In this document: positions 43,035 through 48,512 of the stretch, piece by piece
Layout: each line of letters starts with the position of its first letter
How positions within the stretch are numbered: position 1 is the first letter of the stretch
Assembly (NCBI GenBank): GCA_937922705.1
Contig: CALAIW010000003.1
Span: 1-57,407, forward strand
Source: an uncultured bacterium
Lineage (GTDB): Bacteria; Atribacterota; Atribacteria; Atribacterales; Caldatribacteriaceae
DNA length: 57,407 nt
Reading direction: 5' to 3'
The notes under the pieces: model-generated
What the model was told of the DNA's origin: nothing
The model's database searches: none
Seen by the model: the letters and a program-made list of their open reading frames with translations, nothing else
Translations under genes and position numbers: made by a program

Positions 43035-43850
43035 ATGACTCGCCAAAGAGCTATAGCTTATCTCTTTGCTTCGGCTATACTCTGGAGCCTTGGAGGGCTT
43101 TTAATAAAGCTTGTTCACTGGAATCCTCTGGCGATTGCTGGAGCACGCAGTACCATTGCTTGCGGATTCCTGCTGTGCTTTTTTCGGCCGCGACTTCGCT
43201 TATCTTCTCTTGAAATCCTTGGGGGTATAGCCTACGCGGCGACGGTAATCCTCTTTGTCCTGGCCAACAAACTTACTACTGCCTCTAACGCTATCCTCCT
43301 CCAGTATGGCGCTCCGGTATACGTTGCTCTTCTAAGCCAGTGGCTCCTTGGGGAAGCTCCTTCCCGATTCGACTGGATTTCAGTGGGCATGGTCCTTGGA
43401 GGAATGGTGCTCTTTTTCCTTGATCGCCTAAGCCCGGGAAATATGCTTGGGAATTTTGTAGCCATAGGAAGTGGCATTGCCTTTGCTTTCCTCATTGTGC
43501 TTCTCAGAATGCAAAAGGATACAGAACCCTTGCAATCAGTCTTCGTGGGAAATCTCTTTGCCGCCTTTGCAGGTCTACCCTTCTTTTTCACCACTGCCCT
43601 TGACAGGCAAGGGTGGATTGGGCTTCTCCTTCTTGGAACGGTGCAGATCGGACTCTCCTACCTCCTCTATGCCCAGGCTATACGAAAGGTAAAGGCCCTC
43701 GAAGCAAGCCTTATTCCGATGATTGAGCCAGTGCTTAACCCCCTTTGGGTTTTTCTTGCCCTTGGAGAGTCTCCAGGGCGTTTTGCACTCTTTGGAGGAG
43801 GAGTCATTCTTTTTGCCGTTTTTCTTCGGTACCTTGTGCAAAATCGGTAG
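43035..43850 (+). CDS. EamA/DMT-family transporter
   Basis: This 271-aa protein has ten predicted membrane helices in two EamA repeats, the first starting AIAYLFASAILWSLGGLLIK and the second around LGNFVAIGSGIAFAFLIVLL. Family features GARSTIACGFLL and LEASLIPMIEPVLNPLWVFL are present, the latter being the typical EPV helix. Such carriers move metabolites such as amino acids or nucleotide precursors, often outward. The ATG directly follows the permease 2 stop, so it belongs to the transporter operon. Its stop directly abuts the stop of the convergent beta-helix gene with no terminator between. Confidence 0.9.
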   Translation: MTRQRAIAYLFASAILWSLGGLLIKLVHWNPLAIAGARSTIACGFLLCFFRPRLRLSSLEILGGIAYAATVILFVLANKLTTASNAILLQYGAPVYVALLSQWLLGEAPSRFDWISVGMVLGGMVLFFLDRLSPGNMLGNFVAIGSGIAFAFLIVLLRMQKDTEPLQSVFVGNLFAAFAGLPFFFTTALDRQGWIGLLLLGTVQIGLSYLLYAQAIRKVKALEASLIPMIEPVLNPLWVFLALGESPGRFALFGGGVILFAVFLRYLVQNR

Positions 43851-44861
43851 TTACTCTTCGAGAAAAGGGATACGGTTTTCTGCAACCACGTTTCCCGGCC
43901 CCCAGAGGATGTTTTTGTCTCTGGGCCAAACCACACCTACGGGGTTTCTAAGAATCTGGTTTCCTTCAAAGACTCCTTCCGTTCCTTGGAGAAGACATAA
44001 CCCCCCAGTCGCACTCTCTGCAACCTCATTCCCCTCAAAGAGGCAAAGCGTTCTACACGTCATCCCCCAAGCATTGCGGAGAAAACGGGAACGACGCACT
44101 ATAAGGGTTGATCCTCGCTTTGCCAAAATCCCTTCTCCCTGGTTGCTCACAAAAACCGAGTCTTCCACCGTAACCGTAGTTTCTGCTTCCGCAAGGATTC
44201 CCGCCGCCTCGTTCCCAAGAAATACACAGTTTCGAAACAGGAGAGAAGCTCCCCGAGCCGCTACCACACCATTTCCCATCCAGCTCAGCTTTTCTCGAAC
44301 TCCCCCTTGGAAGACACAGTTCTCAAAGGCCACCCGAGCCCTCAAAACTACAACTACATTGCCAGCCTTTCTCCCCTGCAGGGAAAAGGCCACATTCTGC
44401 ACAACACCCTCTCCTTTCCCCTCAACACGAAGCACCTCGCCCTCACGGAAAAGGACAACCCCACCCATACCTGCAAAGTGGAAGGGTGGGGTAAGAGTAA
44501 GCCGCTCTGTAAGGAAGTAATCCCCCGGACTGAGAAGTACTGAGCCACTTTGGGGGAAAAGAGGATTCTCAGGAAATGCGGGCTGAAAATCTTCAAGGGA
44601 GGAATGCTTTTCTTCAGCCTCAAGAACGAGCTCAAGGAGCTTTTCTTTCCTACCCCACAGGAAGGTTACCATCCCCAAAAGTATACGTCCCCGGACATCA
44701 CCTCGAAGGCGAAAGGAAAAAGGAGACAAAGGATCCGGGACAAGAAAGGAGGGATAAGAAAGGACACGTACTTTCTTAGGAACCACGAAAGTGAGACACT
44801 CTTCATTTGAGGGAAGGGTAATCCGCTTTGCCTTATCCTGATAGCGAACCACGACATCCAT
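43851..44861 (-). CDS. Right-handed parallel beta-helix protein linked to the TerY-P triad
   Basis: This 336-aa protein has no signal peptide. The first 100 residues are of unknown fold. From about 110 onward it is a pectate-lyase-like beta-helix with short repeating rungs, for example VVLRARVAFENCVFQGG, GASLLFRNCVFLGNEAAGIL and TTVTVEDSVFVSNQGEGIL, introduced by the typical LSPGDYFLTERLTLTPP. No carbohydrate-active catalytic triad is obvious. The ATG at 44861 (GAGG 9 bases upstream) is preferred over 44888. The start overlaps the kinase gene by 29 bases, so co-translation is likely. It could be a kinase substrate, scaffold or sensor; this is inference. Confidence 0.8.
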   Translation of the reverse strand: MDVVVRYQDKAKRITLPSNEECLTFVVPKKVRVLSYPSFLVPDPLSPFSFRLRGDVRGRILLGMVTFLWGRKEKLLELVLEAEEKHSSLEDFQPAFPENPLFPQSGSVLLSPGDYFLTERLTLTPPFHFAGMGGVVLFREGEVLRVEGKGEGVVQNVAFSLQGRKAGNVVVVLRARVAFENCVFQGGVREKLSWMGNGVVAARGASLLFRNCVFLGNEAAGILAEAETTVTVEDSVFVSNQGEGILAKRGSTLIVRRSRFLRNAWGMTCRTLCLFEGNEVAESATGGLCLLQGTEGVFEGNQILRNPVGVVWPRDKNILWGPGNVVAENRIPFLEE

Positions 44862-46218
44862 CTTCCTCAACCTCGAGGAGGAATCCATCGATTTCGAGGA
44901 GAAGACGAGAGTAAAACACTGTTGGTTCCCCTCTCTCCTTTGTGTGCCATTCTCCAGAAGGAGTAAGAACGCGAAACTTTCGCCTACCTAGAAAAATGTA
45001 GCGTCCTTCTTCCTCTCTCCACTGCACCTCTCCAAGAATCTCCTGTGCATCCTTCTGTCCAGAAAGCATTTTCTCCACAAGGAGAAACCCATGGCCAAGA
45101 ACAAGCCTACGTTTTGTAGCGCTGTATACTCCCTCGCTCTTTCTTTCAAAAACTCGAATAACAACAGGGTACGGTAAGCGAACCAGAGAACCACAGAAAG
45201 GACATCTCCTAAGGAGCAAAGGAAGCCAGTACGGATATGGAAAGTACTGAGCACACCGGTTGCACCGCCAGAGCTCAAAAAAGGAAAAGAAAAGAGCCCG
45301 TTCCCATTCTCGAGCCAGAGGTCGACGCTCAGGAACAAAAAGACCGTCAAGAAAACTCTGCTCCACAAGTTCCTGAAGCGAGGGAGGAAGTATGCGGTAA
45401 CTTAAAACCCCCCGACGAAAAAGGGGTATACCAAGCCGCTTCGGCCGGTGGCGAAAGTCACAGGGATGTTCACTGAAAAGAGCCATTTTTCCCCATCCTA
45501 AGCGCTCATCTTCTTCTGGATCTTCCGCGTAACACACAAGGGGTTGTAGAGGATTCCGAAAAAGGAGAGTGTGAAAGAGAAGCACAGCAAGACTGTGCCG
45601 GTCAGTTTTTTGACTTGGTGTGGCATTCCTCAAGACAACTTCAGGAGCCATAAAGGGCATCATGCCCGCCACCTGAGGAGGAAGAAAGCCTGGCACCACA
45701 AGACCATCAAGGTCAATGAGTACTGCAAGGCCTTTGGTAATGTCTACAAGGAAATTGCTAAAGTGGAGGTCTGCATGGGCACATCCTTTTCCATGGAGAG
45801 CTGCAACAATACGGGCAATGCTATGAGCAATTTGAAGGTAATTGAGCCAGTTAGCCCCTTTCTCTACCGCTTCTTTGAATTCCCTGGGACTAAAGATGTA
45901 ATCCACAAGCTCTCGAAAAGGTGGTCGAGGCACGCGTTTGGTAACTACCCCAATGCGTCTCCAACCATCAAGCTCTTGCACAAGCGCCACAGGCCAGCAA
46001 AGGAAATTTGCTTCCTCTCCAAGGTTTTTCCCAAGCTCAAGGACTCGCTGGAGTAATGCTCCTTTCTCCTGAGGAAGAGCCTGATCGTGGTATACCTTGA
46101 CTACGAAATTCCCACAGCGGCTAAAATAGACTTCTCCTTCACCACCGACAAAAACGGGACCTTCTACTTCAAACCGTTTCGGCACAAAAGAGAAAGGAGA
46201 AACCGCAGTTACCCGCAT
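44833..46218 (-). CDS. Serine/threonine protein kinase-like protein with zinc ribbon (TerY-P triad kinase)
   Basis: This 461-aa protein has a glycine-rich loop FVGGEGEVYF, the ATP lysine in FVVKVYHDQ, the catalytic loop GCAHADLHFSNFLVDI (HxDxxxxN), the metal-binding segment LIDLDGLVVPGF in place of DFG, and FMAPEVVLR as the APE equivalent. About residues 335-365 form a zinc ribbon (CNRCAQYF...RRCPFCGSL). A C-terminal beta-rich domain follows. The catalytic residues suggest activity despite DLD for DFG. The start overlaps the PP2C gene by 10 bases. The kinase, PP2C and VWA set is the TerY-P triad described by comparative genomics of tellurite-resistance-linked systems. Confidence 0.88.
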   Translation of the reverse strand: MRVTAVSPFSFVPKRFEVEGPVFVGGEGEVYFSRCGNFVVKVYHDQALPQEKGALLQRVLELGKNLGEEANFLCWPVALVQELDGWRRIGVVTKRVPRPPFRELVDYIFSPREFKEAVEKGANWLNYLQIAHSIARIVAALHGKGCAHADLHFSNFLVDITKGLAVLIDLDGLVVPGFLPPQVAGMMPFMAPEVVLRNATPSQKTDRHSLAVLLFHTLLFRNPLQPLVCYAEDPEEDERLGWGKMALFSEHPCDFRHRPKRLGIPLFRRGVLSYRILPPSLQELVEQSFLDGLFVPERRPLAREWERALFFSFFELWRCNRCAQYFPYPYWLPLLLRRCPFCGSLVRLPYPVVIRVFERKSEGVYSATKRRLVLGHGFLLVEKMLSGQKDAQEILGEVQWREEEGRYIFLGRRKFRVLTPSGEWHTKERGEPTVFYSRLLLEIDGFLLEVEEDGCRGSLSG

Positions 46219-47219
46219 CGGTACACCACCACAAGAGTCCGATCGTCAAAGCTTCCAGGAAGGGTATACGTACCAAGCCAGGTAACAAGACGTCGAGCCG
46301 CTCTCTCAAGACTCCCTGAAGAGGAAACCTCGCGAAGGAGATCACGGACAAAGCGATCAGTCACGTCCTCCGGAGGACCGTAGAGACAATCATCTGCCAA
46401 ACCATCTGTCATAAGGAGGAGAGCTTCAAGCCGTTCCCTTCGAAAGTCAAAAGACCCCACTCGGCAGTACCTCTGCCAGTCGGGCTGCGTTAGTACTGCT
46501 GTCTCTCCAAGGTCGCAGTCTTCCTGAACGCTCAAAAGAAGACTTTTTCCACCTCGTTGAACCCCAAGAATGGCTCCATCACCGAGGTGAAAAAAAAGCC
46601 CCCTCTTCTGGGACACATTACAGAGACAAAAAAGAAGAGTTGTCGCAAAATCACTCTCTGGTCGTGCCTCCCTCTGAGCAAGGTTCCGTAAAAAAGTATG
46701 CGTGTACGTCCCTGCTTCATAAAGGTACTCTAAAATGACATCCCACGAAGGAGGTTCTTCACCTTCTTCTCCTTTCTCTTCAAACCAACTTAGTACTCCA
46801 ATCTCATTCCATCCAGAATAGGGCTCGTCGGACTCTCCTGCGCAAGACGCACTTGTCCTCAAGCGGAAGCGACGCCTCCGGGATACGACTAAGGGGAGCT
46901 TGGTCAAGACATAATCGGCAAAAACGCTCACTGCAAAGGTAGCACCCCACACACTTTTTGGAGCGCTGCCAACTCCATCGGCTAAGGCTACAGCAAGCCA
47001 ATCACCTTTCGAACGTACAAGAAGGCTGTCTTCTCTGCCTCTCTGCATTTTTCGATGAAGCCTTCCAACGACGCTCCCCCCAACAAAAGCAAATCCCCCA
47101 AGGTGTCCAAAAACAGCAAGCCAGTCAGGATGTGTGTTGAACGAAGAGAGTACTCGATCGCCAGCGATAAATCCTTGCGAGATACACCCCACCTCCTCAT
47201 GGGATATACTGGAGAACAT
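46209..47219 (-). CDS. PP2C-family protein phosphatase (TerY-P triad)
   Basis: This 336-aa protein shows PP2C metal-binding motifs: REDSLLV and LAVALADGVGSAPKSVWGA (DGxG), SDFATTLLFCLCN, FFHLGDGAILGV, ALLLMTDGLADDCLYG and the terminal GSFDDRTLVVVY. It should remove phosphate from targets of the adjacent kinase. An acidic, low-complexity loop (EEKGEEGEEPP) interrupts the domain in the middle. The ATG at 47219 overlaps the VWA gene by 23 bases. No clear Shine-Dalgarno is seen, so translational coupling is likely. Confidence 0.9.
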   Translation of the reverse strand: MFSSISHEEVGCISQGFIAGDRVLSSFNTHPDWLAVFGHLGGFAFVGGSVVGRLHRKMQRGREDSLLVRSKGDWLAVALADGVGSAPKSVWGATFAVSVFADYVLTKLPLVVSRRRRFRLRTSASCAGESDEPYSGWNEIGVLSWFEEKGEEGEEPPSWDVILEYLYEAGTYTHTFLRNLAQREARPESDFATTLLFCLCNVSQKRGLFFHLGDGAILGVQRGGKSLLLSVQEDCDLGETAVLTQPDWQRYCRVGSFDFRRERLEALLLMTDGLADDCLYGPPEDVTDRFVRDLLREVSSSGSLERAARRLVTWLGTYTLPGSFDDRTLVVVYRCG

Positions 47220-47895
47220 CAGGAGGAATCGGTATAGGCATTGAGGAGGTTTCTCCCTGTCCCTGTGGTCGGCTTAAGGTTTTACTCACCGAGCGAACAG
47301 TTTGCGAAACCCAGCGGAAAAATGCCGCAAAAGAGGCTGCATCGGAATCCATCTTAAAGCTTGGTCCGATAGCAATTTCTCTCAGCGTTGCTTCATCAAT
47401 ATCCGGTCCACACCCCACGGTGATGACATTGAGCACTTTTCGTTCCTTTCGGGCAAGAAGTTCTTCCCGAGGCGTACGCCAGTCGTCGGTCGGCTTCCCA
47501 TCAGTGAGGATAAACACAAGAGGTTTCCAATCCCCCTTTTCTCCCCCAGGAATAGCCTTTTTTACATCCCGATCGAGAGAATCGATAAGAAGCCGAAGCG
47601 CTTGCCCAAGAGGCGTGTACCCTTCTGCTTCCAGAGGTGGTAGGGAAAGCTGATCAATAGGTACAAGCCCTCCGGTAAGATTTTGTACTTCCCTTCCAAA
47701 GGTGATGACCGAAACCCATACCGTTTCCCGGGCAAAAGTGTCGTTCTCAACCTCGCGTTTGAAAAGCACCACCCCCTCCTGAAGGGCTTGGATAGGGGCT
47801 CCAGCCATACTTCCCGAAGTATCAAGAAGCAGATACACCGGTAAACGACGCAGACCTTGACTCAGCGCAACATCCATCGTGATGTGCTCATCCAT
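47197..47895 (-). CDS. TerY-like von Willebrand A domain protein
   Basis: This 232-aa protein (ATG 47895; an alternative in-frame ATG lies 6 codons later) is a single cytosolic VWA domain. It has the metal-ion-dependent adhesion site residues in YLLLDTSGSMAG (DxSxS), the threonine in EGYTPLGQAL and the aspartate in FILTDGKPTDDW. The spacing and the GRPTDxW-like motif match TerY. A proline-rich tail (SSMPIPIPPDVL) ends the protein. It is the first gene of the four-gene operon and is divergent from the ECF transporter gene. VWA proteins of this class assemble metal-dependent complexes. Confidence 0.9.
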   Translation of the reverse strand: MDEHITMDVALSQGLRRLPVYLLLDTSGSMAGAPIQALQEGVVLFKREVENDTFARETVWVSVITFGREVQNLTGGLVPIDQLSLPPLEAEGYTPLGQALRLLIDSLDRDVKKAIPGGEKGDWKPLVFILTDGKPTDDWRTPREELLARKERKVLNVITVGCGPDIDEATLREIAIGPSFKMDSDAASFAAFFRWVSQTVRSVSKTLSRPQGQGETSSMPIPIPPDVLQYIP

Positions 47896-47990: not shown

Positions 47991-48512
47991 ATGCGCGAAA
48001 GGACTCGGGAAATCGCCTTTGTAGGAATTCTCATCGCTATGAGTGTAGTTCTCACCCGTTTCGCAAGCATTAGAATCGCTATCGGTGGTATCGAGGGAGT
48101 GCGTATCGGCTTTGGAACATTTCCCATTATTCTCAGTGGTATTCTCTTTGGACCCGTTCTTGGTGCTCTTACCGGCGCACTTGCTGACATCATCGGCTTT
48201 GCCCTAAGTCCTATGGGGCCGTACTTTCCCCACTTTACCCTTACTGCATCGCTCTACGGAATCCTTCCAGGGATCCTCGTGCACTTTCCCTTACGCTCAA
48301 GAACGTACCGAATATTTCTTGCTGTTGTCGTACCCCAGATAGGGGTCGGATGCCTCCTTACTCCGTACTTCCTTCACACCCTCTTCGACATGCCCTGGAA
48401 AGTTCTCCTCATCCCCCGACTTATAAGCACCCCCCTCAACGTCCTTTTCTATGTGCTTCTTCTTTTCAGCCTCTCACGCGTTCCCCTTTTTGCCGCTCTT
48501 CGGGAACAGTAA
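47991..48512 (+). CDS. ECF transporter S component, folate (FolT)-like
   Basis: This 173-aa membrane protein has about six helices. The N-terminus carries the typical RTREIAFVGILIAMSVVLTR, followed by the helix-loop RIGFGTFPIILSGILFGPVL and GALTGALADIIGFALSPMG, which match folate-type and related S components. It would bind a vitamin such as folate and work with an EcfA/EcfT module encoded elsewhere. The ATG at 47991 has AGGGGGTG 5 bases upstream. It is monocistronic and convergent with the epimerase gene. Substrate assignment is by motif resemblance only. Confidence 0.8.
   Translation: MRERTREIAFVGILIAMSVVLTRFASIRIAIGGIEGVRIGFGTFPIILSGILFGPVLGALTGALADIIGFALSPMGPYFPHFTLTASLYGILPGILVHFPLRSRTYRIFLAVVVPQIGVGCLLTPYFLHTLFDMPWKVLLIPRLISTPLNVLFYVLLLFSLSRVPLFAALREQ

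Follow-up and report, generated by a model that had tools for sequence, protein, structure and literature searches.

A TerY-P triad with a co-inherited beta-helix partner on the chromosome of Candidatus Caldatribacterium

The window, the whole stretch of 57,407 nucleotides analyzed here (contig CALAIW010000003.1), belongs to a Candidatus Caldatribacterium genome. It contains four overlapping, intact minus-strand open reading frames (ORFs) that encode a TerY-like VWA protein, a PP2C phosphatase, a kinase with a zinc ribbon, and a right-handed beta-helix protein. The genes and the parts of their products are as follows.

47197..47895 (ORF to 47955), minus strand: TerY-like VWA protein (Pfam VWA, 1e-10; alignment; comparison with plasmid TerY tails)
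46209..47219, minus strand: PP2C phosphatase (Pfam PP2C_2, 3e-27; alignment)
44833..46218, minus strand: protein kinase with zinc ribbon and predicted FHA-like C-terminal domain (Pfam Pkinase, 6e-9; alignment)
45184..45270, minus strand: kinase zinc ribbon, with Cys 319, 322, 339, and 342 invariant (alignment including the distant G024 kinase)
44884..45171, minus strand: kinase FHA-like domain, a predicted fold with approximate borders (AlphaFold2 pLDDT 88.6; Foldseek matches mostly FHA)
43851..44861 (ORF to 44888), minus strand: beta-helix protein (Pfam Beta_helix, 2e-13; alignment; AlphaFold2 pLDDT 89.7)
44607..44861, minus strand: N-terminal beta-sandwich (Ig-like) domain of the beta-helix protein (AlphaFold2 strands, 2-82; alignment gap in G001 and G003)
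44262..44312, minus strand: hyper-conserved loop of the beta-helix protein, residues 184-200, FQGGVREKLSWMGNGVV (column conservation)

The TerY start at 47895, taken from an earlier reading, is plausible. The beta-helix start is best placed at 44861 (MDVVV...), because the orthologues from G002, G006, and G008 also start with MDV here. Neighboring genes overlap by 23 bp (TerY/PP2C), 10 bp (PP2C/kinase), and 29 bp (kinase/beta-helix; 56 bp if counted from the first ATG at 44888). The original prediction read these overlaps as a sign of fixed stoichiometry, which goes further than the translational coupling that they suggest. A promoter scan gave no excess of sites over shuffled sequences and no site before the beta-helix start.

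The operon is flanked by a divergent gene for an ECF-transporter S component of the folate family (folT), at 47991, and by a convergent EamA gene ending at 43850. The window also encodes rpoB, rpoC, EF-G, phosphofructokinase, and transketolase, and thus represents core chromosome. Both folT and rpe adjoin the operon in three genera of the family (g1, g2, and g3), and two dehydrogenase genes are also kept beside it wherever the contig extends far enough. We therefore dropped a mobile-island reading of the locus, as its synteny is conserved across the three genera.

The first three genes form a TerY-P triad by composition, located outside any Ter island. Ter genes commonly, but not obligatorily, accompany such triads. 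The VWA protein has an intact MIDAS with the DxSxS motif, and its proline-rich C-terminal tail matches that of plasmid TerY proteins. Five Ser/Thr positions are conserved in this tail, making it a candidate phosphorylation and docking site on sequence grounds. The tail (47197-47310) ends in LQYIP in seven close orthologues. In the PP2C protein the metal-binding Asp residues are conserved, and the kinase retains its catalytic residues (K41, D150, N155, D169, and D171) along with the four zinc-ribbon cysteines, which it has in common with the distant G024 triad. The kinase tail is homologous to that of plasmid TerY-P kinases (hhalign E value of 1e-6), and plasmid relatives have 31 to 35% identity over 75% of the kinase. 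The best of these relatives come from loci annotated with TerD, VWA, and PP2C genes. No TerD was found in the window's genome or in eight relatives, which extends to nine genomes the original prediction that the window lacks this gene; its assignment of the triad likewise holds, based on Pfam, motifs, and the plasmid relatives.

TerY-P was reportedly defined in a paper of 2012. In published accounts (PMC11090510; PMC4978471), the triad is a cluster of a TerY-like VWA protein, a PP2C phosphatase, and a kinase with zinc ribbon, as in the window. The window locus differs in lacking TerD, in having a beta-helix partner and a beta-strand-rich, predicted FHA-like kinase tail, and in its stable chromosomal position. 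A kinase with a zinc ribbon and a beta-rich domain has also been described together with PP2C and vWA proteins in GAP1-N2 and vWA-centered systems (PMC7159879).

The part of the kinase that follows the zinc ribbon was not recognized as any Pfam family, and AlphaFold2 modeled it with a pLDDT of 88.6. A Foldseek search of the PDB placed FHA domains at the top (MDC1, NIPP1, and GarA; best E value of 5e-3, probability of 1.00). The individual E values are modest, and the top matches agree on FHA, so that the model predicts an FHA-like fold. Canonical FHA domains bind through a conserved Gly-Arg and a Ser-x-x-His motif, with the Arg contacting phosphothreonine. The kinase tail has an invariant His in place of the Gly-Arg and has no Ser-x-x-His. 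Based on its modeled fold, the domain is a candidate reader of phosphorylation, and it hints at how the kinase may organize or read its partners.

The beta-helix protein is predicted by AlphaFold2 (pLDDT 89.7) to consist of a small Ig-like beta-sandwich followed by a right-handed beta-helix. Pfam, AlphaFold2, and Foldseek, whose matches to the model are beta-helix proteins, agree on a parallel beta-helix. No signal-peptide-like hydrophobic start was present in the window protein, as had been predicted for a cytosolic fourth gene product. Searches with its sequence in the PDB and by tblastn in plasmids gave nothing useful. The proteins of G001 and G003 lack the Ig-like domain: in these genomes the gene either overlaps the kinase gene or follows it, which leaves no room for such a domain; thus, this domain is dispensable. 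Another orthologue, in G004, is cut by the contig end.

Polysaccharide lyases, epimerases, and hydrolases are among the closest folds of known structure, and one explanation would make the beta-helix protein an effector enzyme, a carbohydrate lyase or hydrolase fold activated by the triad. Two invariant residues in its conserved loop, Glu190 and Lys191, are consistent with this explanation. Identity to those enzymes is just 7 to 15%, with no PDB sequence match, and a protein without a signal peptide would have no extracellular polysaccharide substrate. We regard the enzyme explanation as quite improbable.

Conservation within the helix is concentrated in this loop, GGxxEKxxWMGNG. Across eight orthologues, 11 of its 17 columns (residues 184-200) are invariant, compared to 28 of the remaining 219 helix columns (Fisher's P = 4e-6). 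Of the Ser/Thr positions, only Ser235 and Ser258 are conserved throughout; the two occupy corresponding sites in consecutive coils and are therefore probably structural. These counts bear on the possibility that the beta-helix protein is the phospho-target of the module, with the kinase phosphorylating it, the PP2C protein reversing the modification, and its assembly or binding changing as a result. Its place next to the kinase in the operon of all nine genomes that carry it, and its fast evolution under constraint (below), fit such a target. In contrast, loop position 193 varies among Ser, Thr, and Gly, and five conserved Ser/Thr positions are found in the TerY tail instead. We consider a phospho-target unlikely. 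Of the roles originally proposed for the fourth gene, it has the least support, with two invariant serines, and a sensor (recognition) or scaffold role fits best.

The beta-helix gene is a true member of the operon. Among 61 genomes, nine, all Atribacterota, have the beta-helix gene; a close kinase and TerY occur in the same nine and in no other. The beta-helix gene adjoins the kinase gene in each intact locus, usually overlapping it. Orthologues scored at least 426 bits, while the next match in 386 genomes scored 52.7 bits. Generic beta-helix proteins elsewhere reached at most this score, without triad genes within 1.5 kb, and were rejected as counterparts. Unrooted trees of TerY, the kinase, and the beta-helix protein have the same topology. 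Absence from all related triads, or a promoter of its own together with an unrelated phylogeny, had been named as grounds against this reading; the fourth gene occurs in related triads, no promoter of its own was detected, and its tree is congruent with those of its neighbors.

Several Ks values are saturated; wherever Ks is usable, Ka/Ks is well below 1. For the same three pairs, it is 0.15 to 0.29 for the beta-helix gene and 0.05 to 0.07 for the kinase gene. The beta-helix gene is thus under purifying selection, yet it is the fastest evolving of the four. Retention of the whole quartet in nine genomes, together with these low ratios, points to more than chance.

To place the quartet among other triads, we surveyed 71 TerY-P-like kinase loci outside this group of nine genomes with an HMM built from the eight orthologues, using flanks of about 5 kb, beyond which partners would be missed. 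VWA and PP2C genes both lie beside the kinase in 58 of these loci. A beta-helix match was found in three, L202, L200, and L245, which represent two distant lineages; the other 68 lack one, compared to its presence in all nine close loci. Our first two surveys had led us to conclude that the gene is absent from every other triad; the wider survey overturned this. In the three loci the beta-helix gene precedes the TerY, PP2C, and kinase genes, and their kinases are among the nearest outside relatives of the window kinase (48 to 51% identity). In a tree of 80 kinases, a single clade of 14 leaves, with support of 1.0, unites all 12 beta-helix loci; its other two leaves are loci with related partner genes. 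The beta-helix protein is therefore, as predicted, not a standard TerY-P member; it is no one-off either, and marks one kinase clade that includes distant lineages. This link may go back to one ancestral gain and not to a repeated need.

The beta-helix parts of the window and sister proteins align collinearly, including the loop (hhalign E value of 2e-13). In the sister proteins, other residues stand in place of the GlxWMGNG segment of the loop, a further point against an enzyme. Their Ig-like domains did not align with that of the window protein by hhalign. Partner genes in the sister loci have a common helical N-terminal module of about 205 residues, which matches no Pfam family and is absent from the window protein. 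This module is joined to a beta-helix in L202 and L245 (L200 shows only the helix, at the contig end), to an FGE-sulfatase domain in L200 and L202, to WD40 in L200, to SH3 in L203, and more distantly to CHAT, also in L203. The genes with WD40, FGE-sulfatase, and SH3 parts are located at L200:3-2930, L200:2924-4438, L202:7157-8599, and L203:169-1362. In other TerY-P-like kinases, WD40 or TPR repeats belong to the kinase chain itself, and in G024 a TPR gene adjoins the kinase gene. Of 11 genomes in its genus, G470 alone carries a copy (L245), which suggests that this copy was gained by transfer. Kinases from the phylum of G371, to which G470 also belongs, carry GUN4, WD40, and TPR domains as in cyanobacteria, and this phylum is presumably the cyanobacteria. 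A second ORF of G470, elsewhere in the genome (L271, G470:C1:1065377), encodes an adaptor and beta-helix protein of 1,737 residues.

Partners are thus swapped in one slot and have mostly binding folds, which favors a recognition or scaffold role for the beta-helix protein over a phospho-target or an enzyme. Tentatively, and with somewhat more doubt than belief, we propose that these loci represent a separate TerY-P subtype, whose VWA-phosphatase-kinase core docks interchangeable recognition proteins (beta-helix, FGE-sulfatase lectin-like fold, WD40, SH3, and CHAT) via the shared, undescribed N-terminal module. Such a subtype would be a phosphorylation-based counterpart of the effector-associated domain (EAD) systems, and Atribacterota would have kept a streamlined, vertically inherited version of it with a dedicated beta-helix. 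EAD-type systems carry one small adaptor domain in several copies on different effectors or sensors, and the sister loci recall them (PMC8195603) in placing one N-terminal module on several C-terminal parts. The window protein differs from EAD and vWA-centered systems in lacking the helical module, and no MoxR, STAND, or GTPase core was seen beside the operon. A general core with swapped partners, as the sister loci suggest, would tie TerY-P to modular bacterial conflict systems.

This resemblance also bears on a defensive function. TerY-P modules shield Pseudomonas aeruginosa from phages (PMC10889362), and the quartet could be an anti-phage system with the beta-helix protein as phage sensor. 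The EAD-like modular partners of the sister loci, including CHAT and FGE-sulfatase, are typical of conflict systems, and the G470 copy looks horizontally gained. In contrast, the window locus is syntenic across three genera beside folT and rpe, in a region with rpoB, rpoC, and EF-G. Stand-alone anti-phage TerY-P also combines VWA, PP2C, and kinase genes in one operon (Gao et al. 2020, as cited in PMC11090510; PMC10889362). As described in PMC11090510, its kinase is fused to an OB fold, whereas the window kinase ends in a zinc ribbon and a predicted FHA-like domain, and its family is without a mobile-island sign. PADLOC returned weak, generic kinase matches only, but it does not discriminate here, since control triads yielded generic kinase matches or none. 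An anti-phage function thus seems improbable for the quartet.

Our preferred interpretation, on which we are evenly divided, treats the quartet as a cytosolic phosphorylation switch of the TerY-P kind, in which the beta-helix protein serves as a dedicated recognition module. The kinase and the PP2C phosphatase would together determine how far a common target is phosphorylated, the simplest candidates being the conserved Ser/Thr-rich tail of TerY or a client protein. The metal-binding VWA domain of TerY would gate or scaffold the two enzymes, and the kinase would hold or read partners with its FHA-like tail. On the surface of its coils, the beta-helix protein would bind a client or ligand; by docking to the core, probably via the conserved loop, it would bring client and switch together. 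We infer all of the binding and phosphorylation steps, the docking role of the loop, and the direction of signaling. Recognition is consistent with the co-occurrence in nine genomes, the shared tree topology, purifying selection, the single kinase clade, the modular partners of sister loci, and a best-conserved loop that sister proteins have in common. Against it stand a possible single ancestral gain, the fastest rate of evolution in the operon, the many beta-helix proteins that are enzymes, the missing helical module, and the Ig-like domains that hhalign did not align. TerY-P switches are widespread, and a small co-inherited partner with a hyper-conserved loop offers a direct handle on the inputs and clients that such a switch recognizes.

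There is precedent for pairing a protein kinase with a parallel beta-helix in the cyanobacterial kinase Pkn22/Alr2502, which contains eight PbH1 repeats (PMC2176072). The two systems are likened by fold: in Pkn22 the beta-helix is fused to the kinase in one chain, whereas here it is encoded by a separate gene of a TerY-P operon.

In G001, G003, G004, G005, and G013, TerY is immediately preceded by a DUF362-ferredoxin gene (L041:6511-7653, L045:3109-4251, L046:10934-12064, and L049:6164-7408), and no full-length match was found in genomes G000, G002, G006, and G008. Considered as a fifth member of the operon, this gene was dropped because the window's genome lacks it; it may have belonged to an ancestral set of five, with at least two later losses. 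In the assembly of G006, a run of N splits the PP2C gene (L047:9397-10460), and mutation is not evident. In G013, a gene for a Sir2-type deacetylase-like product (L049:11740-12480; judged by eye) lies downstream of the beta-helix gene.
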